The translations under genes were made by a program, and so were the position numbers. From the NCBI GenBank assembly GCA_027483645.1, contig JAIXUD010000001.1, positions 1 through 64,000 on the forward strand: a stretch of DNA of 64,000 nucleotides. Direction: 5' to 3'. Of this stretch, positions 17,685 through 31,306 are shown piece by piece (position 1 is the first letter of the stretch; each line of letters starts with the position of its first letter). The stretch comes from Sphingobacteriales bacterium (lineage in GTDB: Bacteria; Bacteroidota; Bacteroidia; Chitinophagales; CAIOSU01). The notes under the pieces were generated by a model. It was given only the letters and a program-made list of their open reading frames with translations. It did not search any database and was not told the DNA's origin.

Positions 17685-18968
17685 CTATTGTGCCCTATCC
17701 TTTTTCCATGGCAGCTCCATGTACAAAGGGGCACCGGTGCGGCCGTCGGTCTTTAAATTACTTATATTAACGTAGCGCAAGTGCATTTTGAAGGGTAAGT
17801 GTTGCGGGTATTCAAATATGAGGCGCTCATTATCTTTTAGGAAATGAAGGCGCAAGAAGAACAATCCTTTATTGAAAAAGTGTTCTGGGAAGGTAACGCT
17901 AACGCTGTATTCTCCTATCGCATCGGGCACATCGGTGGGTTGGTAAGGCATATTGTTGCTGGAGATAATGGGCCGGTGATTAGCGTCGAATATCCAGATG
18001 CTGGCGTTTATAGCCGCTTCGGGCGTAAGCTTCTCGTATCGGCAGCGTATTTGCAGCGGCTTATCGGTATACAACTTTTCGCCTTCGCCTTCTTGTTCAA
18101 AGGCAAAGTATTTTAGCCTCACCCAATCATTTGCAGGCAGTTGGTTCATTTCTGCCTCAGGGTATACAAGTTGTAACGGCCCTTTTTCCAGCTCGTAGCT
18201 TTTGCTCCACACGTTTTCTAGATAGTCGCTCACCATTTCTTGAGGGTCGCCGTGGGCTATTATCTCTCCTTGCTCCATTACTAGGCACTCCGTACATAGT
18301 TCGGCTACTGAGCGCATGTTGTGCGTGCAGATGACAACGGTATGGCCCAGGCCAGTAAGTTGTTTCAGCTTGTTGTAACTCTTTATTTTAAATGCCTCAT
18401 CACCCACCTCAATCACTTCGTCAATCAGCAGCACATCCATATCCAAATGCACAGCCAGTGAAAAAGCCAATCGCAGATACATGCCGCTGGAGTAGTACTT
18501 TACGGGCACATCAATATACTCTCCAATTTCGCTAAAGGCTACAATCTCGGTCATACGCTGGCGTATGCTAGTATCGGCCATACCCATCAGGCTGCCTGCC
18601 ATCATTACGTTTTCGCGGCCGGTAAGGTCGGCTATAAAGCCTGAACCAATATCGAGGATGCTGGTAACTTTTCCTCTTATTTCAATATGTCCGGAAGTGG
18701 GTTCCGAAATACCCGCTAACAGTCGCAAAAGTGTGCTTTTGCCCGAACCATTGCGGCCAATAATGCCTACAGTACTGCCTTTAGCAATGGTAAACGATAC
18801 GTTGTTTAACGCCGCTTTATCTCCTATTTTTTGTTTGTTTTTTTTGCCCAAAGCAAGCGCCACCCCATCTTTTATAGTTTCGGAAAGGCTGGTGCGGTAA
18901 TTGGCATCCATACGGAAAACCTTGCTTACGCGGTCAACAATAATTACGTTTTCCTTTTCGGCTGTCAT
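17685..18968 (-). CDS. ABC exporter ATPase, Wzt-like with C-terminal substrate domain
   Basis: A 427-residue ATPase of the polysaccharide export class. Walker A is G-R-N-G-S-G-K-S at residues 71-78. The signature S-S-G-M is at 160-163. Walker B V-L-L-I-D-E is at 179-184, and the switch histidine is in T-H-N-M. A C-terminal beta-rich domain (about 265-427) resembles Wzt-C modules that recognise the end of the exported chain. It is the last gene of the minus-strand block 25098-17685, 15 nt after the PhyH gene. The cognate permease is the first gene of the block. It should export a glycan or glycan-like molecule to the periplasm; the substrate is unknown. Confidence 0.88.
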   Translation of the reverse strand: MTAEKENVIIVDRVSKVFRMDANYRTSLSETIKDGVALALGKKNKQKIGDKAALNNVSFTIAKGSTVGIIGRNGSGKSTLLRLLAGISEPTSGHIEIRGKVTSILDIGSGFIADLTGRENVMMAGSLMGMADTSIRQRMTEIVAFSEIGEYIDVPVKYYSSGMYLRLAFSLAVHLDMDVLLIDEVIEVGDEAFKIKSYNKLKQLTGLGHTVVICTHNMRSVAELCTECLVMEQGEIIAHGDPQEMVSDYLENVWSKSYELEKGPLQLVYPEAEMNQLPANDWVRLKYFAFEQEGEGEKLYTDKPLQIRCRYEKLTPEAAINASIWIFDANHRPIISSNNMPYQPTDVPDAIGEYSVSVTFPEHFFNKGLFFLRLHFLKDNERLIFEYPQHLPFKMHLRYVNISNLKTDGRTGAPLYMELPWKKDRAQ

Positions 18969-18983
18969 AGTTTACCGATGCCT

Positions 18984-19793
18984 TTATGGGTATCGCTGCT
19001 TAAAGGTATCCAAACTCACGGAGTCGGCATACTCTATCTCCCCAATTTTCGGATATTGGGTTGGTCGCTTGCCATTTTGATAAGTAAGAAAGAACGACTC
19101 ATCGATGGCATATACCTCTGCTTTTTGCGCGGGCATATCTTGTTCTCGATGATAGAAAACCGATTCGCTCTTTTGATGAAACAAAGCTAAAATGATAGCG
19201 GGCCTTGGCTTATCAGAAAAATTAGGGTAAGAGCTATGTATGAGCCTACCATGGAAAAACACGCTATGGCCAGCATTTAGGGGTACTTGTAGCAGATACT
19301 TTTCTTCCAGGTGCGAATAAAGGGTTTGGTAATGCTCCACCACACCAGGGCCGCGCACTTTGTTGGTTATTTTGTGACTGCCCTCTACTACGCAAATGGC
19401 GCCATTATGGGCATCGGTATCAATTAATGGGGTCCAAACGATAATTGGCTCTACCTCGCCCTCCTTCATTATGCTCCAGTCCACATGTAGGCATATGCCG
19501 CTATCAATGTGCGGGTTTTTCACTATGAAGTTGCCATAAAAAGGATGGTAGCCATTGAGTAATTGCGCCAAGCGTTCGGGCGAGAATATCTGTTTTATCT
19601 CCTGGTTTACCCGGCTGCGGTATTCGCTATCTGGGCTATCAATGGATGCGTAAAATGGTGTTTCTACCTTGGGGTTGAGCTGGTGGAACAGTTCGCGCAG
19701 GTAAACTACTTCCTCATTGGTCATCAATTGATGTACCACGTAGCCCTTTTCTTCAAACTGTGCCTGCTGCTGCGGGTTTATAAACTGTTCCAT
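18984..19793 (-). CDS. PhyH-family Fe(II)/2-oxoglutarate dioxygenase (gene D of the block)
   Basis: A 269-residue phytanoyl-CoA dioxygenase-like protein. The iron ligands H103-x-D105 and H186 and the 2-oxoglutarate-binding arginine R197 are present. The core phrase W-T-P-L-I-D-T-D-A-H-N-G-A is shared with the other PhyH genes of the block, as is a C-terminal F-F/Y-x-x-Y segment. The ATG at 19793 is preferred: the longer frame starts with TTG at 19820 and overlaps the upstream gene. It should hydroxylate or otherwise oxidise a small molecule or sugar/lipid group in the cytoplasm before export. It is the fifth PhyH domain of the block in gene order. Confidence 0.87.
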   Translation of the reverse strand: MEQFINPQQQAQFEEKGYVVHQLMTNEEVVYLRELFHQLNPKVETPFYASIDSPDSEYRSRVNQEIKQIFSPERLAQLLNGYHPFYGNFIVKNPHIDSGICLHVDWSIMKEGEVEPIIVWTPLIDTDAHNGAICVVEGSHKITNKVRGPGVVEHYQTLYSHLEEKYLLQVPLNAGHSVFFHGRLIHSSYPNFSDKPRPAIILALFHQKSESVFYHREQDMPAQKAEVYAIDESFFLTYQNGKRPTQYPKIGEIEYADSVSLDTFKQRYP

Positions 19794-19812
19794 CGGTTTT
19801 ATCAAAGTGGTG

Positions 19813-20661
19813 TTATCCAAATATCCTTTCCAGCCATCGCTTTTTCACGGTGTAGGCTTGGTTAATGTTTTCAATAGTCTGCTCACGAAGGTCGTCGTTC
19901 CATACCCCTTTCAAGTGTTCTTGGGGTGGTTTAGTGCCATCGTAGTTGTGCATATAAAAGGATGGCTCCATTTTGTACACCTCCACTTCTCGGTGCTCTC
20001 GTGCTTCTTTGCTGGCCCAAAAGTGAAGTATATCGGCCCCTTGGGGTATGGCTACCATGCCTATTGCAATACGGGTTTGGGGCAAGGTATTAGGCCAAGC
20101 GCCGTGCAGCAACCGCAAATCGAATATCAATGCTTCGCCTGCTTTCAGTGGCAGGGTAACCATTTGTTTTTCATCGATTGGGCGTGTGGTAAATGTAACT
20201 GGGTTGGGTGTATTGTAACCCCTCAATACCTTTATTAGCTTGTGGCTGCCCGGTATGGCAAACAAGGCACCGTTATCTTTCGCTACATCCACCAGCGGGC
20301 ACCAAATATTGAAACCCACATGCTGCCGCTCATCAGTAAACTGCCAATCGAGGTGTAGATGGAGTGTTTCGGAACCTTGTGCTTTAACGAGGTAAAACCC
20401 GAACACGGGTTTGTAATCAATAAAAATATCATTGAATTTTGGACCGAGAATGGCCTGTATAGCCTCGTCTACCTTAGTTTTGTATTCCACATCGCTACTG
20501 GTATGGCTAGTATAAAACTTACTGCCCTCTAGTCCTGAGTTAAGCTGGTTGTAAACCGCAAGCAACCCATCTATCTCGGTTGGGGTAAGCAATGCATGCC
20601 TAACGAAGCCGTCGCGGTCGTAATCGTGCTGCTGAACAATATTTTTAAACAGTTGTCTCAT
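19813..20661 (-). CDS. PhyH-family Fe(II)/2-oxoglutarate dioxygenase (gene C of the block)
   Basis: A 282-residue PhyH protein with an intact active site: H-L-D (H103/D105 counting from the ATG at 20661), the distal histidine in L-L-H-G-A-W, and an arginine in Q-T-R-I-A-I. The ATG overlaps the TGA of the methyltransferase-PhyH-PhyH gene (ATGA), which points to coupled translation; a TTG at 20667 is in frame but less likely. The phrases R-G-Y-N-T-P-N and E-V-E-V-Y are near-copies of segments in the fusion protein, so the domains arose by duplication. The substrate is unknown. Confidence 0.88.
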   Translation of the reverse strand: MRQLFKNIVQQHDYDRDGFVRHALLTPTEIDGLLAVYNQLNSGLEGSKFYTSHTSSDVEYKTKVDEAIQAILGPKFNDIFIDYKPVFGFYLVKAQGSETLHLHLDWQFTDERQHVGFNIWCPLVDVAKDNGALFAIPGSHKLIKVLRGYNTPNPVTFTTRPIDEKQMVTLPLKAGEALIFDLRLLHGAWPNTLPQTRIAIGMVAIPQGADILHFWASKEAREHREVEVYKMEPSFYMHNYDGTKPPQEHLKGVWNDDLREQTIENINQAYTVKKRWLERIFG

Positions 20662-23213
20662 CCCCAAACCTTTCTTTTTATCTTATCTAGTATGGAGTAT
20701 TCATCATGCGTTTCCGCAAGCCCAGGTGTTTCTACTGGGGGTGTTGCGCTAGGCTGTTTTTCAAGATATACCTCCTCTAGCTTTTGGAACATTGCCTCGC
20801 GCTGTGTATCCATTACCTTGCCTAGGTATGGATAGCCTAGGGGGCGTATTTTTATATCGTGGCTGCTATAGTAGGCTTCGTCAACAGCATATACTTCCAC
20901 TTCTTTGTCGTACATTTTTTCCTCGGGAGTATATATATGTATGGGTGTAGCCTCCTTCGGTATCATTACTAAGCCTGCGGCTAACCGCGGGCTATCGCTT
21001 AAGTTTGGTGGAGTACCGTGTATTAGGCGAATGTCATAAAGCAACGCCTCGCCAGCCATCATGGGTAACGTTTTTTGTACACCTGCTTTAACTTTACGCC
21101 CGCCAAAAAAAACTGAATCGGGGGTGTTTTGGCCGCGCCAAGCGTTTACCATTTTATGGCTTTGCGGCAGTATCATATAGGCACCGTTCTGCTCATTCAC
21201 ATCCACCAGTGGTACCCATACATGGATGGCGGTGTAGCGGCGTTCGTCAACGAAATTCCAATCAAAATGAGTATGCAGGGCACTATTTGGGCTAGGATTT
21301 TTGATGATAAACGCCCCGCTGATTGGCACATAGTCTTGTAGAAGCTCATTAAGTTTCGGTAAAAAAATGCGCTTTATTTCGTTGTATATTTTATCGCGGT
21401 ATTCCTCGTTTTTGCTCCAAGTGGTGGGTGCCATGGGTAAGTGCAGCCCAGCAGTGTCGGCATTAAATAGGTTGCATAGGCTTTCTTTCTCTTCTTCCGT
21501 AAGAAATTCACGAATCAGATAGCCTTCTTCCTCCATGGTTTTTTGGTCGGTATCGGCTATCATCATGCGCCGTCGTGCGATGGGTCTTTGCCGGATTTGC
21601 TCTTCAAATAATGGCTCAGTGCCCTTGCCGTACTCGGCTTTTAAATTGGCAATTACACTATCGAAATGTTCATCGATAATCTCGCCGGCTTTGTATTTTT
21701 CGTGAGGCGGTTGGGTAAGGTCATAGTTAAGGTAGAACGATTCAGGCACCACATACTTCGTCATGCAGTGGGGCGCTTGGGTGGTGGGGTCTCGGTATAA
21801 GTGTATTAGGTCCGCATTTTCAGGTGCCATGGTTATGGCAATAGCCAAGCGGGGCTGTATGGTAAAGTTCTCGCCAGAGCCGTGAATGGTACGGTGGTCA
21901 AAAATAGCCGCTTCACCCGCAGGTTGTGGCACCGTAACTACCCTGTCGGCTTTCAACAGGGGCTCTATAATGCTGTAAACGTTCTGCGTATTTTGGCCGC
22001 GCAAAAGGGTAGCGTGGTGGTGGCTGCCGGGCACAAACAATAGGGCGCCGTTCTCCTCATTTACATCCATTAGCGGCACCCAAATGCCAAAGCTGGGCTG
22101 CTTGGTCTCGTCGGTATACTGCCAGTCGCTGTGCATTTGTTTGATGCCGCCAGCACCCATGGGCTTCACTACAAACGAGCCGAAAATAGCTCGGTAGCCT
22201 GGTAAAATTGCCTTCACTTTGGGCGCTACTACTTGCTTCAAAAGGGTATCTACTTCCTTTCTGTAAGCTTCATCCTTTACCTCCAGCGTAACCTGAAACT
22301 GTCCGTTGCTTTCGGGTTCATGGGCCTTATACCAATCGCCTAATAGCTTTACTTCATCAGCATTTAGCAACGGTGTGGTTACGAAACCTTGTTTGTTATA
22401 AGTACTTTGCAGCGCGGCATCGGCAAATTGCTGTTGTTTTTTAAACTGGTAGCTGGGTTTCCAACACTTTATTTCCAACCAATCGGCATAGGGGAAATCC
22501 AAACCTCCTTCAAACAAATCGATGCCGAACTTTGATTCGAAATCGGTGCGAACCTGCACATCGTGCTCAATGGGTACGGGGCGTATGTATTCCACCTCAA
22601 AGCCTGCCCTGCGCATAGCCTTCAATACCACGTTTAGGTCAAGGGTATTGTAACTGTATGCTACATTTATGTTGTTCACCAAGCGGTCGATGTAGGCTTG
22701 GTACTCGGGGTCGTCGCTTTCCTTGGCGTAGAAGTCTTTAATGTAGACATGGCCACCTGGTTTTAATACCTCAAAAGCACCTTTGAGCACCTCTTCGGGA
22801 TTTTTGGAATGGCCTAGCGACTCTAAGAAGAGTACTTTATCGAACCGCTCTCGATGGAAATGCCCGGTAAGCAGGTGGAAATCCCCTTTACGGATGTTGA
22901 TTTTGTCATCTAATCCGGCAGCTATATTCTTTTCCTTGGCCGTATCCACCTGTACTTGCGACAAGGTGAGCCCTTCGAGGGTAACGTTGTGCTGCTTTGC
23001 AAAAAACCTTGCAGGACCGCCTACGCCACAACCAGCATCCAGTACATGCTCGCCAGGCTTAAAACCGATACTATTGGCTATGCGGCTAAGGGTATCTTTG
23101 TCATCCGCACTGCGGAAAGCTTGAATCATGTCGCCATAAACCTCCAGATAACGGCCGGTCCACTCGTCGTAATAGCGCTCTACCGCATCAATATCGTTCA
23201 CCACCTTTGCCAT
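20658..23213 (-). CDS. SAM methyltransferase fused to two PhyH dioxygenase domains
   Basis: An 851-residue three-domain enzyme. Residues 1-255: class I SAM methyltransferase with V-L-D-A-G-C-G-V-G-G-P-A (57-68), close to the sterol/tocopherol C-methyltransferase type, and L-K-P-G-G at 150-154. Residues about 268-510: first PhyH domain with H361-S-D363, H444 and R455. Residues about 556-800: second PhyH domain with H649-F-D651, H732 and R743. Both oxygenase sites look intact. The tail (815-851) is charged and probably flexible. There is no sign of a frameshift or sequencing join, and the domains read through in one frame. It would couple methylation and two oxidations on one substrate or assembly line. 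It starts 6 nt after the preceding PhyH gene. Confidence 0.9.
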   Translation of the reverse strand: MAKVVNDIDAVERYYDEWTGRYLEVYGDMIQAFRSADDKDTLSRIANSIGFKPGEHVLDAGCGVGGPARFFAKQHNVTLEGLTLSQVQVDTAKEKNIAAGLDDKINIRKGDFHLLTGHFHRERFDKVLFLESLGHSKNPEEVLKGAFEVLKPGGHVYIKDFYAKESDDPEYQAYIDRLVNNINVAYSYNTLDLNVVLKAMRRAGFEVEYIRPVPIEHDVQVRTDFESKFGIDLFEGGLDFPYADWLEIKCWKPSYQFKKQQQFADAALQSTYNKQGFVTTPLLNADEVKLLGDWYKAHEPESNGQFQVTLEVKDEAYRKEVDTLLKQVVAPKVKAILPGYRAIFGSFVVKPMGAGGIKQMHSDWQYTDETKQPSFGIWVPLMDVNEENGALLFVPGSHHHATLLRGQNTQNVYSIIEPLLKADRVVTVPQPAGEAAIFDHRTIHGSGENFTIQPRLAIAITMAPENADLIHLYRDPTTQAPHCMTKYVVPESFYLNYDLTQPPHEKYKAGEIIDEHFDSVIANLKAEYGKGTEPLFEEQIRQRPIARRRMMIADTDQKTMEEEGYLIREFLTEEEKESLCNLFNADTAGLHLPMAPTTWSKNEEYRDKIYNEIKRIFLPKLNELLQDYVPISGAFIIKNPSPNSALHTHFDWNFVDERRYTAIHVWVPLVDVNEQNGAYMILPQSHKMVNAWRGQNTPDSVFFGGRKVKAGVQKTLPMMAGEALLYDIRLIHGTPPNLSDSPRLAAGLVMIPKEATPIHIYTPEEKMYDKEVEVYAVDEAYYSSHDIKIRPLGYPYLGKVMDTQREAMFQKLEEVYLEKQPSATPPVETPGLAETHDEYSILDKIKRKVWG

Positions 23214-23219
23214 TACTTA

Positions 23220-24197
23220 CTACAATATTTTTTTGTCGATACCTTTTGCCTTAATCATACCAACAAACGTATCCTTATCTACTGTACGATCAACATACGG
23301 TTCTTCGGTTACCGATTGATAGCCTTTGGGGGTTGCGCGCATGTCGTAATCCAAATAGAACTCCTTATCCACCACCATGGTTTGCAACACTTCGGGGCGG
23401 GCCGGGTCTACATAATAGTGGACCGCTTCGGTTTCGGAAGGGATGATAATGTTCTGGATAACAATGCGCTGTTGGTCGCTGTTGTTAGGGCTTGAATAGT
23501 GGATGAGGCTATCGTCGAAAATAACGGCGTAGCCTGCCTTTACCTCTAGCGGGCGGTGATACTCCTTAATTACAAAATCTGAGAAATCTTTGAAATACCA
23601 AGGAATCCAAGGGCTGCGTAAAGCATAGTGAAAGTTTTGTGAGTGCGTGCCGGGGATGATTTGCAGCGTACCATTATGTGCATTGGTATCCATCAATGGT
23701 ACCCAAACGCTGAACGAGCGGAATTTCTCCTCATCAACAAAGTTCCAGTTTTGGTGCACCGGTACTTCGCCATAGCCGGCATCTTTCAATACAAAATTTA
23801 CAATCAAGGGTTTGTAATCAATCATCCACTTATCAATGGCAGGTTGGAAGAATTGCATCACCGTATTGAACACCTCTTTTTTGTAAGGGATATTGGTATC
23901 GAGGAACGTGAAGTGGTATGTGGCATCCTCCGCATTGGTATTGAAGCGGTTGTCTGGGCGGGTGCCGTTTTTGAAGTCCAGTAATGCCTGTATCGCTTCT
24001 GGCTCCAAGAATGGCACAATTACGTACCCATCTTGCTCAAACTGCTTTTGGTGCTCCGGGTCGCGGAATATCTGGCGGAACTTGGTTGGGTCCTGTCCCA
24101 ACTTAGGCAATGGCTTGGGAGCAGGTGCCGCTGCTTTGGCTGGTTCTTTCTCGGCGGTAGCTGTACCGCCTCCGAATAGCTTACTTAGAAAGCCCAT
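23220..24197 (-). CDS. PhyH-family protein with H-x-N in place of the iron-binding H-x-D
   Basis: A 325-residue PhyH-like protein. An N-terminal segment (1-35) rich in Ala/Pro/Lys precedes the domain. The metal site reads H148-Q-N150, where its paralogs have H-x-D; the codon at 23748-23750 (minus strand) is AAC. H233 and R244 are kept. With the carboxylate lost, iron binding may be weak, or the protein may act as a regulator or scaffold; an unusual ligand set is also possible. The start at 24197 was chosen because the residues upstream of it look unlike a protein domain. It is the second gene of the block, after the permease. Confidence 0.85.
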   Translation of the reverse strand: MGFLSKLFGGGTATAEKEPAKAAAPAPKPLPKLGQDPTKFRQIFRDPEHQKQFEQDGYVIVPFLEPEAIQALLDFKNGTRPDNRFNTNAEDATYHFTFLDTNIPYKKEVFNTVMQFFQPAIDKWMIDYKPLIVNFVLKDAGYGEVPVHQNWNFVDEEKFRSFSVWVPLMDTNAHNGTLQIIPGTHSQNFHYALRSPWIPWYFKDFSDFVIKEYHRPLEVKAGYAVIFDDSLIHYSSPNNSDQQRIVIQNIIIPSETEAVHYYVDPARPEVLQTMVVDKEFYLDYDMRATPKGYQSVTEEPYVDRTVDKDTFVGMIKAKGIDKKIL

Positions 24198-24282
24198 ATA
24201 TCGGTTGTTGTTTTTGCTGATGAAAATGATACAGTGTAATGATAGCCAACAAAATGCTCGCAATCAATGACATTAGTCAGTA

Positions 24283-25098
24283 CTACAGGTAATCTGAAAC
24301 AATGGTTTCCGTTCTCCTAAAATACAAAAGACCGCCCACAAATGCAATCATTATAAATGGCCATGGGTATAGGTAGGCTATATCCCACGCCGGCACACCA
24401 AGCAAACAATACCGAAACCCTTCGATAATGCCCGCCATCGGGTTCCAGTACAAGAAGGGCTGTATTTGTTGCGGCACAACGGCTGCAGGATAAAAAACAG
24501 GAGTAGCCCAAATGCCAAGGTTGAGCAGGTAGGGCACCACATTTTGCAAGTCGCGGAAGCGTATGGTAAGCGCTGCTAACCAAATACCCACCGTAAGCCC
24601 CAAAACAACCAGCATACCTAGAAAAACGGGGAATAAAAAGATGCTTAAACCTGGTGCATGCCCGTAATATACCGCCAATAGGGTATACAGCACCATGCCG
24701 ATGCCCACATCCACCAGTGCGGTGATGGACTTGGAAAGGGGCAATATCAACCTAGGGAAATATAGCCGCTTGATGAGGTCTTGATTATCCACCAACGAAT
24801 TGCCCGCTGCTGAGGCTACGTGCAGAAAGTAAAACCATGGCAAGATGCCCGCCAGTGCGATTAAAGGATAGGGCACACCACCAGTATCAATTTTAAAAAC
24901 GTATACGAAGAAAAAGGTGAACACTATCAACCCCAAAGCAGGCTGTATGGCCGACCATAAAATACCGAGGAAAGTTTGGGCGTATTGTTTCTTAAGGTCT
25001 CTACGGGCCAGGGTACGCACCATTTGGCGGTACTGATACACCTTGCCCAAATAGGCTGCGAAGCTCGCTTTCTTGTTTGTAGGGTAGGGTGGTGCCAT
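24283..25098 (-). CDS. ABC-2 type exporter permease, Wzm-like
   Basis: A 271-residue permease with six predicted membrane helices. The cytoplasmic amphipathic start Y-R-Q-M-V-R-T-L-A-R-R-D-L-K-K-Q-Y and the phrase T-x-L-G-I-L-W-S-x-I-Q-P are typical of polysaccharide/teichoic-acid export permeases (Wzm, TagG). The ATG at 25098 is preferred over the upstream TTG. It is the first gene of the block and pairs with the Wzt-like ATPase at its other end, which is unusual because the two normally sit side by side. A -7-like box lies immediately upstream. Confidence 0.9.
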   Translation of the reverse strand: MAPPYPTNKKASFAAYLGKVYQYRQMVRTLARRDLKKQYAQTFLGILWSAIQPALGLIVFTFFFVYVFKIDTGGVPYPLIALAGILPWFYFLHVASAAGNSLVDNQDLIKRLYFPRLILPLSKSITALVDVGIGMVLYTLLAVYYGHAPGLSIFLFPVFLGMLVVLGLTVGIWLAALTIRFRDLQNVVPYLLNLGIWATPVFYPAAVVPQQIQPFLYWNPMAGIIEGFRYCLLGVPAWDIAYLYPWPFIMIAFVGGLLYFRRTETIVSDYL

Positions 25099-25156: not shown

Positions 25157-25471
25157 TTACCACCCAAAAGCCCAACCTAGCCAGTTATACACCACCCTAA
25201 AAACCATAATGCCATTGAGCGCGAAGCCCATAAACGGAAACATAGGGTTGTGCCCAGGCTGGTAGAGCGCTTGTAAACCCATGAGCGCACCAATACCAAA
25301 GGGTATTACGCTAAGGTTGACGATCCACTTATAGGACGCTTCGAATGCTGCTGGGGTAGCTGTTTGGGTTGCAGCTAGCCATACTGCCAATATCCAAATG
25401 CCAAAGCTTGCGAAGAAGATAAGGTTGCTGTAGATGCCGAGCTTGTTATGAGGTTTTGGCCCGTTCCTCAT
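25157..25471 (-). CDS. Small integral membrane protein of unknown function
   Basis: A 104-residue protein with three likely membrane segments (about 15-34, 49-67 and 79-100). I do not recognise the family. Its ATG overlaps the TGA of the exonuclease/GIY-YIG gene (ATGA), so it is translated from the same message. The link to nuclease function is unclear and may be only positional. Confidence 0.65.
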   Translation of the reverse strand: MRNGPKPHNKLGIYSNLIFFASFGIWILAVWLAATQTATPAAFEASYKWIVNLSVIPFGIGALMGLQALYQPGHNPMFPFMGFALNGIMVFRVVYNWLGWAFGW

Positions 25472-26835
25472 AGCGGTATCAGTTTTTCCACGGGGTTGCG
25501 CTCGAGGTAGCCCTTGATGATGGTTTGCACGTTACGATTGTCGTTCTGTGGGCTGATGCAGCTTTTTAGGTGCTCTACCCCATCTCGAATCTTTATTTGT
25601 GGCACAAAGCCAAAGCCCACGTAGCGGCCCCCTTCAATAAATACCACCGAGCGCTCGTCGGTATAGCGGCCATGGTCAATTACTATAAAGTTGTCGTGCT
25701 CGTAGCGCACTAGGCGCAGGGCGGTGTTGATGCGTTGGTTGTAATTTTCGGGGGCTTCTAGGTTTAAGCAAGCCCCGTGGCACTGGTGTATGCCATGGTT
25801 AAAGCAAGGCCCACTGCCAGTTTGCAGGGCGGTCAGCTTCGGGCAAAGCTGAAACTCCTCCACCAATCGCTCCATAAAGGTCTTGCCCTCTTCACGAGTA
25901 GTGAAGGTGGTAAGCGGAGTGTGCTTGCCGTTTTTCTCTACCCGCAGGCGGATGTAACCATCCAGCTCTAGCGAGGCATATAGGCCAAACTCATAGTTGG
26001 CGCGCCGTTGCGCGGCATTGAAAACGGGTTGGTGCTTTTTTATTTGGGCGCTTTCAAGCAGCAGGGCTACCAGCTCGCTGCCGGTAAGCTCGTATTTAAT
26101 AGTGGCCACGGCATCGCGCATCACTACCGATTTCTGGGTAGTGAAGTTGGCCAAATGTGTAAGCACCCGGCTGCGGATGTTGTTGCTTTTGCCCACATAT
26201 ACCAAGTCGCCCTCTTTGTTGTAGAAGTAGTACACGCCACATTTCTCTGGCAGTTCATCCACCACACTGCGTAGCGGGTGTTGCTCCCATTCGCGCTTGA
26301 TGGGTGCGGCCTTGCTGCCCCGCAGCTTGCGGAATCCGTTGCCATCTTTTTCCAATAGCATTTCGAATAGCTTCACTGTTGCTGCGGCATCGCCGCCGGC
26401 GCGGTGGCGCATATTGAGCTCTATGCCCAGCTCTTTGGTAAGCTTGCCAAGGCTATAAGAGGCATGGCCGGGCAACAATTTGCGGCTAAGCTGTACGGTG
26501 CATAGGGTAGTTCTATCGTACTCAAAACCTAGGCTCTTAAACTCGTTGCGGATGAAGTGGTAGTCGAACTTGGCATTGTGCGCCACAAAGGTGCAGCCTT
26601 CTGTAAGCTCCACTATCTTCTTCGCCACTTGGTAAAACTTGGGCGCATTGGCCACCATATGGTCGTAGATGCCGGTAAGCTCAGAGATGTAATAGGGTAT
26701 TTTACACTCGGGATTGATGAGGGTATCATACTCTGCCACCACCTTTTCGCCATTGTGCACAAATATGGCTATCTCGGTTATCCGATCGTTGCGGCTATTG
26801 CCGCCCGTGGTTTCTATGTCGATGATGGCGAACAT
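25468..26835 (-). CDS. DnaQ-type exonuclease fused to a GIY-YIG nuclease (UvrC/Cho-like)
   Basis: A 455-residue two-nuclease protein. The N-terminal DEDDh exonuclease (1-165) has D6-x-E8 in I-D-I-E-T-T-G, an aspartate in H-N-A-K-F-D-Y-H-F, and H-R-A-G-G-D. A linker leads to a GIY-YIG domain from about residue 200, with C-G-V-Y-Y-F followed by V-Y-V-G-K-S-N-N and an arginine in R-S-R-V. This matches the Cho-like proteins that incise at DNA lesions; the exonuclease part could trim the product. The start at 26835 was chosen because the motif begins right after it. Confidence 0.88.
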   Translation of the reverse strand: MFAIIDIETTGGNSRNDRITEIAIFVHNGEKVVAEYDTLINPECKIPYYISELTGIYDHMVANAPKFYQVAKKIVELTEGCTFVAHNAKFDYHFIRNEFKSLGFEYDRTTLCTVQLSRKLLPGHASYSLGKLTKELGIELNMRHRAGGDAAATVKLFEMLLEKDGNGFRKLRGSKAAPIKREWEQHPLRSVVDELPEKCGVYYFYNKEGDLVYVGKSNNIRSRVLTHLANFTTQKSVVMRDAVATIKYELTGSELVALLLESAQIKKHQPVFNAAQRRANYEFGLYASLELDGYIRLRVEKNGKHTPLTTFTTREEGKTFMERLVEEFQLCPKLTALQTGSGPCFNHGIHQCHGACLNLEAPENYNQRINTALRLVRYEHDNFIVIDHGRYTDERSVVFIEGGRYVGFGFVPQIKIRDGVEHLKSCISPQNDNRNVQTIIKGYLERNPVEKLIPL

Positions 26836-26842
26836 TTCTTCT

Positions 26843-26870
26843 AGACACAAGATTTAAGACACAAGACTTG
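26843..26870. repeat. Heptamer tandem array, 4 copies (AGACACA-like)
   Basis: Units AGACACA, AGATTTA, AGACACA and AGACTTG are in register, just upstream of the exonuclease start (minus strand). Its word differs from those of the other arrays. Confidence 0.7.
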
Positions 26871-27590: not shown

Positions 27591-28076
27591 CTATTCCATC
27601 CGCCCCACAGTCCCCGTAGTGCTATGCCCATCTAATAATGGCACTATCTCCACCTTGCCGCCGTGCTGGGTTACCCAATCATAGCCTACGATGGTTTCGG
27701 GTACATAGTCGCCGCCCTTTACGAGTACATCGGGGGTGAGGGTTTTTATCAATTCCAGGGGAGTGTCTTCATCAAACAATACTACGGCATCTACCAACAA
27801 CAGCGCGGCCAGTACTTCGGCGCGGGTGGTTTCGTCTTGTATCGGTCGGGTTGGGCCTTTTAGGCGCTGTACGCTGGCATCGTTATTTAGGCCAATTACC
27901 AGTACATCGCCCAACTCTCGGGCAGCGCTTAGGGTGTGCAGGTGCCCGCGATGCAGCAAATCGAAACATCCGTTGGTAAATACAATGCGCTTACCCTTAA
28001 ACCGCCATATGGCCGCTTTGTGCTGCAATGCTTCGAGAGAAACAATTTTAGCTTTTAGTACTGTTGGGTTGAACAT
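27591..28076 (-). CDS. rfaE2: D-glycero-beta-D-manno-heptose 1-phosphate adenylyltransferase
   Basis: A 161-residue nucleotidyltransferase with T-N-G-C-F-D-L-L-H-R-G-H near residue 34, the family HxGH signature, and V-K-G-G-D-Y towards the end. It matches the stand-alone second domain of HldE/RfaE, which makes ADP-heptose for the LPS core. The kinase domain is not nearby. The ATG at 28076 overlaps the 3' end of the flippase-like gene by 29 nt. Confidence 0.9.
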   Translation of the reverse strand: MFNPTVLKAKIVSLEALQHKAAIWRFKGKRIVFTNGCFDLLHRGHLHTLSAARELGDVLVIGLNNDASVQRLKGPTRPIQDETTRAEVLAALLLVDAVVLFDEDTPLELIKTLTPDVLVKGGDYVPETIVGYDWVTQHGGKVEIVPLLDGHSTTGTVGRME

Positions 28077-29097
28077 CGCTTTTGCCGGTAGTGCGGTTAA
28101 GTATAGGCAGCAAGATAAATGAAAGTGACCCAAATACCACTATCGAAATGGTTTGTGTGCCCCATACCAACATACCGAAAGAGGAGCCAAACGCTTTGTC
28201 AACGCCATATAGCATAAGGGCTCCCGCTACAAAAACAGGGTATAAACCAATGCCTCCCGGAGAAATAATCATGGCTACCGAGCCGATTACAAAGGCTGTG
28301 ATGACTGCGCCGAAAGACAACTCTGAGGTCTCTGGAATGCTGTAGATGCATACATACATCATCATGTAGTAGCAAATCCAGATAAAAATGGAGTGAAACA
28401 CCATCCAGCCAATCTTATCGACATGCCTCACCGATTTTACCCCATCGAGCATACCTTTAGCCGCATCGCGCACTTTGTGATAAAAACGCAGCTTCATAAT
28501 AGCTTTACGGAAAGCCAAAAAAGTAAGGGTTAAGGTAGCAGCACCAATGCCTAGGGTAATAAGTATGAAGTTGCGGGCAAAAAAGCTTTTCTGTTCTACT
28601 ACCGCAGTAGCATTAACTTCTTGAAACCCATTATTGAAGTATTCGAGGATTTTATCGAACTCCATAACAAAACCGAGTAGTAGTATAAGCGCTAGCGCTA
28701 TCAAGTCCAATATCCTTTCAGTAATCACCGTACCTATAAGGTGTTGCATGGGTACTTTTTCGTACCGGGTGAGCACTGCACAGCGTGTCACTTCCCCCAA
28801 CCTAGGAAACAACAGGTTGGCGAAATACGAAATCATTACGGCAAAAAGGGTATTTAAAAAACCTGGGCGAAAGCCCAGCGGCTTAATAAGCATTTGCCAG
28901 CGAATGGCACGGCTTACCTGAGCAAAACTGCCGATAACCAGCGAAAGGCCCAACCAAAAATAGTTGGCATTTTTCATGGAGTTGATAGCATTTTCCCTAT
29001 CCTTCGGCTCCATATTTACGTAAAAGTAGTATACGGCACCTATCCCTATGGCTAAAAATACACTAAACTTTAAGCCTTGGATGATTTTGTCTTTCAA
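28048..29097 (-). CDS. Lysylphosphatidylglycerol synthase-type membrane protein (flippase-like, UPF0104)
   Basis: A 349-residue membrane protein with about eight hydrophobic segments. Family phrases include R-A-I-R-W near residue 65 and the F-P-R-L-G-E motif near 95, and S-P-G-G-I-G-L-Y-P near 280. It belongs to the LPG_synthase_TM/YbhN group, whose members flip or handle lipids. It lacks the soluble aminoacyl-transferase domain of MprF. It lies between panD and rfaE2 in one minus-strand run (panC, panD, this gene, rfaE2). Confidence 0.85.
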   Translation of the reverse strand: MKDKIIQGLKFSVFLAIGIGAVYYFYVNMEPKDRENAINSMKNANYFWLGLSLVIGSFAQVSRAIRWQMLIKPLGFRPGFLNTLFAVMISYFANLLFPRLGEVTRCAVLTRYEKVPMQHLIGTVITERILDLIALALILLLGFVMEFDKILEYFNNGFQEVNATAVVEQKSFFARNFILITLGIGAATLTLTFLAFRKAIMKLRFYHKVRDAAKGMLDGVKSVRHVDKIGWMVFHSIFIWICYYMMMYVCIYSIPETSELSFGAVITAFVIGSVAMIISPGGIGLYPVFVAGALMLYGVDKAFGSSFGMLVWGTQTISIVVFGSLSFILLPILNRTTGKSDVQPNSTKS

Positions 29098-30508: not shown

Positions 30509-31306
30509 ATGGAAAAAAAGAGAGTGCTTATTGTTACACAGGAAATGGAGCCTTACCTGATCCAAACTGAGGTTGCTAAAGTGGTGGGTAGCTACCCACA
30601 ATATGTGCAGGAGCATGGCTTGGAGATAAGGGTCCTTATGCCTAGGTTTGGTAGCATCAATGAGCGTAGGCATCGCCTGCACGAGGTTGTGCGCCTTTCT
30701 GGTATCAATATAAGCGTGGCTGATGAGGATTACCCATTATTGATAAAAGTAGCTTCTTTGCCTGGTGCCCGCATGCAGGTGTATTTTTTGGATAACGAGG
30801 ATTTCTTTAAACGCAAATCAGTATTCAGCGACGAAACCGAAGGGTTTTACCAAGACAATACCGAACGAATGATTTTCTTCTGCAAAGGAGTGATAGAAAC
30901 GGTTCGCAAGTTTGGCTGGCCGCCGCATATCATCCATTGCCACGGTTGGATGACCAGTTTGATACCGTACTACCTGAAAAATAATTACAAGAACGACCCC
31001 GTGTTCCAAAATACGAAGGTGGTTTATTCCGTTTACGAGAACAGTTTTGAGGAAACCTTGCCAGAAGCCTTTTCAAAAAAAGCATCGGGCGGCGTAAACT
31101 TCGAGCTGTTTGAGAAAGGTGACAACACTAGCTTGAGCCTTGGTGGCGTATCGTTTGCCGATGCTGTTATTAAAGCAAGTGCCGTAGTGCCGGCTGCTGT
31201 ACAAGACCTGATTAACCAAAATGGCAAGCCCGTGCTGGACTACCAAGAGGAGGAACAGATACCTGCCGCCTACGATTCTTTCTATAAAATGCTATTGAAC
31301 GAATAA
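30509..31306 (+). CDS. Short starch/glycogen synthase-like protein (N-terminal GT5 half only)
   Basis: A 265-residue protein with the N-terminal half of GT5 glycogen synthases (V-x-I-V-T-Q-E-M-E-P, then P-H-I-I-H-C-H-G-W-M-T-S near 150). It lacks the C-terminal nucleotide-sugar-binding Rossmann domain, and the usual K-x-G-G-L substrate loop reads I-Q-T-E-V-A. It ends cleanly, so this looks like a stable short family rather than a truncated gene. Similar short proteins occur next to panC, DUF4270 and glmS in this phylum as I recall. It may not be a transferase at all. Confidence 0.75.
   Translation: MEKKRVLIVTQEMEPYLIQTEVAKVVGSYPQYVQEHGLEIRVLMPRFGSINERRHRLHEVVRLSGINISVADEDYPLLIKVASLPGARMQVYFLDNEDFFKRKSVFSDETEGFYQDNTERMIFFCKGVIETVRKFGWPPHIIHCHGWMTSLIPYYLKNNYKNDPVFQNTKVVYSVYENSFEETLPEAFSKKASGGVNFELFEKGDNTSLSLGGVSFADAVIKASAVVPAAVQDLINQNGKPVLDYQEEEQIPAAYDSFYKMLLNE

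Follow-up and report, generated by a model that had tools for sequence, protein, structure and literature searches.

A conserved PhyH dioxygenase cassette of Bacteroidota that probably tailors a surface glycan before Wzm/Wzt export

A six-gene operon of a Sphingobacteriales bacterium (GCA_027483645.1, contig JAIXUD010000001.1) places five PhyH dioxygenase domains and a methyltransferase between the permease and the ATPase of an ABC exporter. We propose that this operon provides one half, tailoring and export, of a glycan pathway that depends on an ABC transporter, and that its substrate would be a glycan made by a second locus on another contig of the same genome (C10). We put the probability of this reading at roughly two in three. 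The cassette recurs beside sugar-assembly genes, so that a surface glycan is probably oxidised and methylated before export. Below, the window means the whole stretch of 64,000 nucleotides that was analysed, from the start of the contig.

Results

Operon layout

The six genes lie on the minus strand at 25098-17685 and all run in a single direction. Likely ATG starts were used for the gene coordinates and gap lengths. In the order from Wzm to Wzt the intergenic gaps are 85, 6, -4 (an ATGA overlap), 19 and 15 nt. A preliminary description of this DNA had given the same genes, order, strand and gaps, and these are correct to the base. It had also described the operon as lacking a glycosyltransferase; there is indeed none inside it, and the nearest glycosyltransferase-like gene among those scanned in the window is of the starch-synthase type (30509-31306). 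A scan for promoters and terminators gave nothing above chance level.

The first gene, with its ATG at 25098, encodes a Wzm-type ABC-2 permease (24283-25098; Pfam ABC2_membrane, 2.9e-15) that has weak subfamily matches to KpsM and the galactan Wzm. It is followed by a PhyH dioxygenase with H-x-N replacing H-x-D (23220-24197; Pfam PhyH, 2.4e-19) and by a gene for a fusion protein of 851 aa, which Pfam divides into a SAM methyltransferase and two PhyH domains (20658-23213). Full-length orthologs of the fusion, 68-69% identical, are found in three same-genus genomes. Its methyltransferase domain (residues about 1-256, 22446-23213; Methyltransf_11, 2.1e-14) has stand-alone relatives in other cassettes. 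The PhyH domains of the fusion, identified with Pfam and the PhyH tree, carry the motifs HSDW (21654-22439) and HFDW (20754-21608). Two further PhyH genes follow, one with HLDW (19813-20661; 1.9e-20), which forms the ATGA overlap with the fusion gene, and one with HVDW (18984-19793; 8.6e-19). The last gene encodes a Wzt ATPase (17685-18968; ABC_tran, 1.3e-19), in which a nucleotide-binding domain is joined to a C-terminal domain of the carbohydrate-binding type (residues about 251-427, 17688-18218). The pairing of an ABC-2 permease with a Wzt-type ATPase is thus present.

The operon is adjoined in the window by an RNase_T exonuclease fused to a GIY-YIG domain (25468-26850), which is probably unrelated. 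Further along, an LPG_synthase_TM/TIGR00374 flippase-like protein (28048-29097) lies beside a cytidylyltransferase-like gene (27591-28133).

Conservation and spread of the cassette

The same operon is present in three genomes of the genus (G001-G003), and a fourth (G004) carries its right half at a contig end. A search with the H-x-N alignment found 79 named loci, nearly all from Bacteroidota and mostly from metagenome-assembled genomes, that carry the labels Chitinophagales, Flavobacteriales, Saprospiraceae, Fluviicola or Lutibacter. Among these loci, many of which lie on truncated contigs, three or more PhyH domains occur in 68, Wzm in 54, Wzm or a Wzt with the C-domain in 57, and the methyltransferase in 41. 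The H-x-N PhyH is immediately beside Wzm in 39 of the 79. Cassette loci host three to ten PhyH domains, and a common arrangement is Wzm, the H-x-N PhyH, several further PhyHs, a methyltransferase and Wzt. We therefore find the set kept as a unit in relatives, across families and orders of Bacteroidota.

The H-x-N PhyH has matches in 56 of the 399 genomes sampled from the window's order. A random sample of 396 genomes from the phylum gave no carrier beyond the window's own genome, which indicates that the spread of the system is patchy; its extent is taken here from the order sample and the named loci.

The PhyH domains form one subfamily

All four PhyH genes match the Pfam PhyH model (8.6e-19 to 9e-38), the fusion gene in two stretches, and all five domains exceed the PhyH gathering score. 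When the whole 4.27-Mb genome is searched with PF05721, exactly five matches are returned, every one of them in the operon. The iron triad has H-x-D in four of these domains and H-x-N in the fifth, where it is kept across the orthogroup. We compared 122 PhyH domains from related loci. All of them have the proximal iron His, 121 carry the distal His and the 2OG Arg, and the position of the second iron ligand is occupied by Asp in 107 domains and by Asn in 15. These 15 Asn domains, the window's included, form a single orthogroup (support 0.998), in which H148, N150, H233 and R244 are invariant across 13 aligned members. Since the metal and 2OG residues are retained, they argue against the H-x-N protein being a decayed enzyme.

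The predicted model of the H-x-N PhyH has a mean pLDDT of 80.6, and its best folds include the TlxIJ heterodimer, AviO1, HygX, EvdO2, SyrB2 and EvdMO1. TlxIJ, the best match, is built of paired PhyH subunits, and at least 12 named loci encode the H-x-N PhyH as a fusion with the PhyH that follows it; a heterodimer with the neighbouring PhyH is a possibility. That said, TlxIJ serves a meroterpenoid-type pathway, and the H-x-N PhyH, unlike the TlxIJ pair, retains both His residues and the 2OG Arg. A SyrB2-type halogenase was considered for the H-x-N protein and found no support, as the site is H-x-N and not H-x-A/G and the score is 31 bits against 226 for TIGR01762. WelO5-type halogenase-family proteins adjoin cassette PhyHs in two other loci (L105:15779-17579 and L061:15923-16741).

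The PhyH domains had been taken for recent paralogs. Their pairwise identity is about 29-35%. In the PhyH tree four of them, namely the H-x-N domain, both domains of the fusion and the PhyH at 19813-20661, which has orthologs in G001-G004, each cluster with same-genus orthologs, so recent local duplication is rejected. For the PhyH at 18984-19793, the three same-genus operons offer no ortholog; its partners in the tree are cassette PhyHs of G006 and G038 (support 0.94). The 122 cassette domains separate (support 0.845) from the 11 filter-passing PhyHs of those genomes in the order that lack the cassette, and no cassette domain in this tree has an outside sequence as its nearest neighbour. The PhyH genes thus do not have separate best relatives in unrelated pathways. 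Judged from this tree, the five domains of the operon belong to one cassette-specific PhyH subfamily.

A dedicated exporter

In characterised systems the C-terminal carbohydrate-binding domain of Wzt reads the chain end before export, and the known chain terminators carry a coiled-coil ruler (PMC11231755). The preliminary description saw a Wzt-C-like domain in the ATPase. The Pfam Wzt_C model has no match to the window Wzt at E<=0.01, but the Wzt family profile aligns at full length to Aquifex Wzt (8dku; positions 8-380 of 412, 1.2e-92), through the C-terminal domain. The domain can be retained on its alignment to the carbohydrate-binding domain of Aquifex Wzt, although not as a match to the Pfam model.

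The same genome has a second, ordinary Wzm/Wzt pair (L174:9403-11513, contig G000:C16), beside genes of sugar-nucleotide type and glycosyltransferase genes. In a Wzt tree, 17 of 18 ordinary Wzts, the C16 copy among them, form one clade (0.999), and all 36 cassette Wzts, including that of the window, lie apart from it. By its place in this tree, the cassette Wzt is a dedicated, separate lineage.

A probable partner locus for glycan assembly

Cassettes of other families adjoin genes for GT2, GT4, UDP-glucose dehydrogenase, a sugar epimerase and a DegT aminotransferase, as well as for an AsnB-like amidotransferase, UbiA, a carbamoyltransferase and radical-SAM proteins. In the window genome the partner families are found together on a separate contig (G000:C10, about 139-151 kb), where the locus encodes an AsnB-like protein, two radical-SAM/SPASM proteins, a GDSL-like protein, a DXD-glycosyltransferase, UbiA and a protein of 301 aa; the same-genus copies of this locus have a GT4 alongside. 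The assembly genes are linked to the transporter in many relatives. They are on another contig in the window genome, so the partnership rests on relatives and on co-occurrence.

This co-occurrence is strongest for UbiA. A UbiA of the partner-locus type is present in 53 of the 56 genomes with the H-x-N PhyH and in 9 of the 343 without it (Fisher p 1e-52, which ignores shared ancestry); three genomes have the PhyH and lack UbiA. In 21 of the 49 genomes with a listed place, UbiA is at most 20 kb away. A test for membership of the DPPR-synthase type, the polyprenyl-phosphate phosphoribosyltransferase subfamily, returned weak, generic prenyltransferase matches only. Two cassette loci host UbiA-GT4 fusions (L180:9452-11767 and L177:7781-10096), the former beside Wzm. 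The 301-aa protein (L168:11395-12300) belongs to a protein family (alignment A4; length about 300 aa) for which no Pfam model scores over the cut-off. Its predicted fold is that of a GT-A glycosyltransferase (pLDDT 90.4), with TarP, TarS and WrtF as best matches, and the family is found in 40 of the 56 genomes with the H-x-N PhyH against 4 of the 343 without it, uncorrected for ancestry.

Because the cassettes sit amid glycan genes, and because of the C10 locus, the UbiA and GT-A co-occurrence and the UbiA-GT4 fusions, we consider it very probable that the exported backbone is a glycan. The substrate may also be prenyl-derived.

Several other gene types were seen around the cassettes. In same-genus genomes, genes for a carbamoyltransferase, a WbuX-like amidotransferase and a nitrilase-type protein lie just beyond Wzt (L051:15426-19181); this trio is also near Wzt in G033, G005 has related genes close to a PhyH of the cassette type, and in the window the trio is not beside the operon. 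Several B12-binding or SPASM radical-SAM genes lie near the cassettes of L059, L060 and L054. In a genome of the same family (G006), arylsulfotransferase-like and sulfotransferase genes are within the cassette locus (L055:15166-17526).

Segments that may dock the enzymes to the membrane

The H-x-N PhyH begins with MGFLSKLFGGG, an amphipathic stretch that resembles the MinD tail. The fusion protein ends in the amphipathic tail SILDKIKRKVWG, and the PhyH at 19813-20661 ends in KKRWLERIFG. A strict rule, by which the protein must end in an amphipathic tail that is basic and contains an aromatic residue, selects 92 of 410 PhyH genes (22%), against 34 of 683 neighbouring genes (5%); at a rate of 22%, docking cannot be claimed for every PhyH enzyme. 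Among the stand-alone methyltransferases, 18 of 38 carry a transmembrane-like segment at the N-terminus, and several of the rest begin with an amphipathic stretch. These segments would suit enzymes whose substrate is lipid-linked and lies at the inner membrane.

Discussion

We suggest the following course for the pathway. The glycosyltransferases of C10, together with the UbiA prenyltransferase, would assemble a polyprenyl-linked glycan at the inner membrane, on its cytoplasmic side. Membrane-docked PhyHs would then oxidise C-H bonds, by hydroxylation or related 2OG chemistry, and a membrane-docked methyltransferase would methylate the glycan chain or its end. The finished glycan would be recognised by the C-terminal domain of the dedicated Wzt and carried across the membrane by Wzm/Wzt. 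Hydroxylation by the PhyHs is an assumption on our part. Sequence cannot discriminate between hydroxylation, epimerisation and bridge formation. An earlier proposal had been a dedicated pathway that oxidises, methylates and exports a surface molecule with a backbone made elsewhere or not a glycan. The conserved cassette and the separate Wzt lineage speak for such a pathway, and the UbiA/glycosyltransferase locus for assembly elsewhere, whereas the non-glycan option is not supported.

Tailoring may be narrower than this, with the PhyHs and the methyltransferase acting only at the non-reducing end and the oxidation itself being the signal that Wzt reads. In E. coli and Klebsiella the non-reducing end is where WbdD or Kdo caps act. 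Chain termination by methyl caps is known, the oxidases and the exporter share one operon, and the Wzt has a C-terminal domain of the chain-end-reading type. However, three to ten PhyH domains per locus are far in excess of what one cap needs, and we regard a restriction to the chain end as somewhat unlikely.

The exported molecule could instead be a modified prenyl or other lipid, with UbiA making a prenyl conjugate that the PhyHs hydroxylate. PhyH enzymes and SAM methyltransferases do act on lipids elsewhere, the co-occurrence with UbiA is the tightest that we found, and cassette methyltransferases have predicted membrane anchors. Yet UbiA occurs in fusions with GT4 and has genes for glycosyltransferases and sugar-nucleotide enzymes around it, and the C-domain of Wzt aligns with a domain that binds glycans, which makes a lipid product unlikely.

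Two further ideas concern the chemistry. It is conceivable, if quite unlikely, that enzymes of a PhyH subfamily specific to Bacteroidota, among them the one with the conserved H-x-N iron site, work as a membrane-docked assembly line which introduces oxidative bridges, or other groups that are not hydroxyls, into the exported surface polysaccharide, and that a dedicated Wzt domain reads them. We are more sceptical still of a chemistry like that of the orthosomycins, in which a methyltransferase and then a PhyH would form methylenedioxy, orthoester or similar bridges in place of plain hydroxyls. The cassette enzymes share with the orthosomycin oxygenases (EvdO2, AviO1, HygX and EvdMO1) the PhyH fold and, if we are right about the substrate, an action on sugars. 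All four are among the best folds matched by the H-x-N model, and EvdO2 is in addition the best PhyH match of the fusion protein by sequence. The window's methyltransferase-PhyH-PhyH protein and the PhyH-methyltransferase fusions of L077, L083, L102, L114, L136, L138 and L146 recall EvdMO1, a fused methyltransferase-oxygenase, but resemble it in architecture only. Moreover, the similarity is at the superfamily level (E 1e-8 or weaker), superfamily folds are undiscriminating, with meroterpenoid and proline enzymes scoring equally, and the two domains of EvdMO1 act independently according to the title of its structure paper (cited in PMC10338323). The orthosomycin oxygenases also act on antibiotic oligosaccharides of actinomycetes and not on a polymer exported by Wzm/Wzt. 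Finally, a chance gathering of unrelated oxidases by an exporter is hardly credible: the PhyH at 18984-19793 is missing from the same-genus operons, but the cassette is conserved across families and orders, with a single PhyH subfamily and a matching Wzt lineage.

Characterised ABC-exported glycans are finished by a capping reaction. Our preferred reading, a tailoring-and-export operon for a glycan, has its closest counterpart in the ABC-dependent export of O-polysaccharides (E. coli O8/O9a, Klebsiella O12/O4 and the Aquifex system of 8dku), with which it shares Wzm, a Wzt with a C-terminal domain, a pathway methyltransferase and, in many cassette relatives, linked glycan genes. It differs in its three to ten PhyH domains per locus, in the separate Wzt lineage, and in an operon without a glycosyltransferase whose assembly genes are here at a second locus. 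Among NCBIfam models, TIGR04324 (SpoChoClust_2, sporadic carbohydrate cluster 2OG-Fe(II) oxygenase), also of the PhyH type, is one of the best relatives; the operon's domains are not members, as they score 17-44 bits (best 43.9) against a cut-off of 150. In the searched literature we found no description of PhyH with Wzm/Wzt, although such loci may be mentioned in the survey by Mann, Kimber and Whitfield (2019) of carbohydrate-binding modules linked to Wzt. As far as that literature shows, the cassette is a real, conserved and undescribed variant of the ABC-exported glycan pathways.

In many uncultured Bacteroidota, then, three to ten iron-oxidase domains are placed beside a permease and an ATPase. 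This suggests a class of surface glycans that contain unusual oxidised sugars. It also ties in a UbiA prenyltransferase and a GT-A family that lacks a Pfam model, and makes a conserved H-x-N dioxygenase available for study. If bridges are indeed formed, this would be orthosomycin-like chemistry on a cell-surface polymer.
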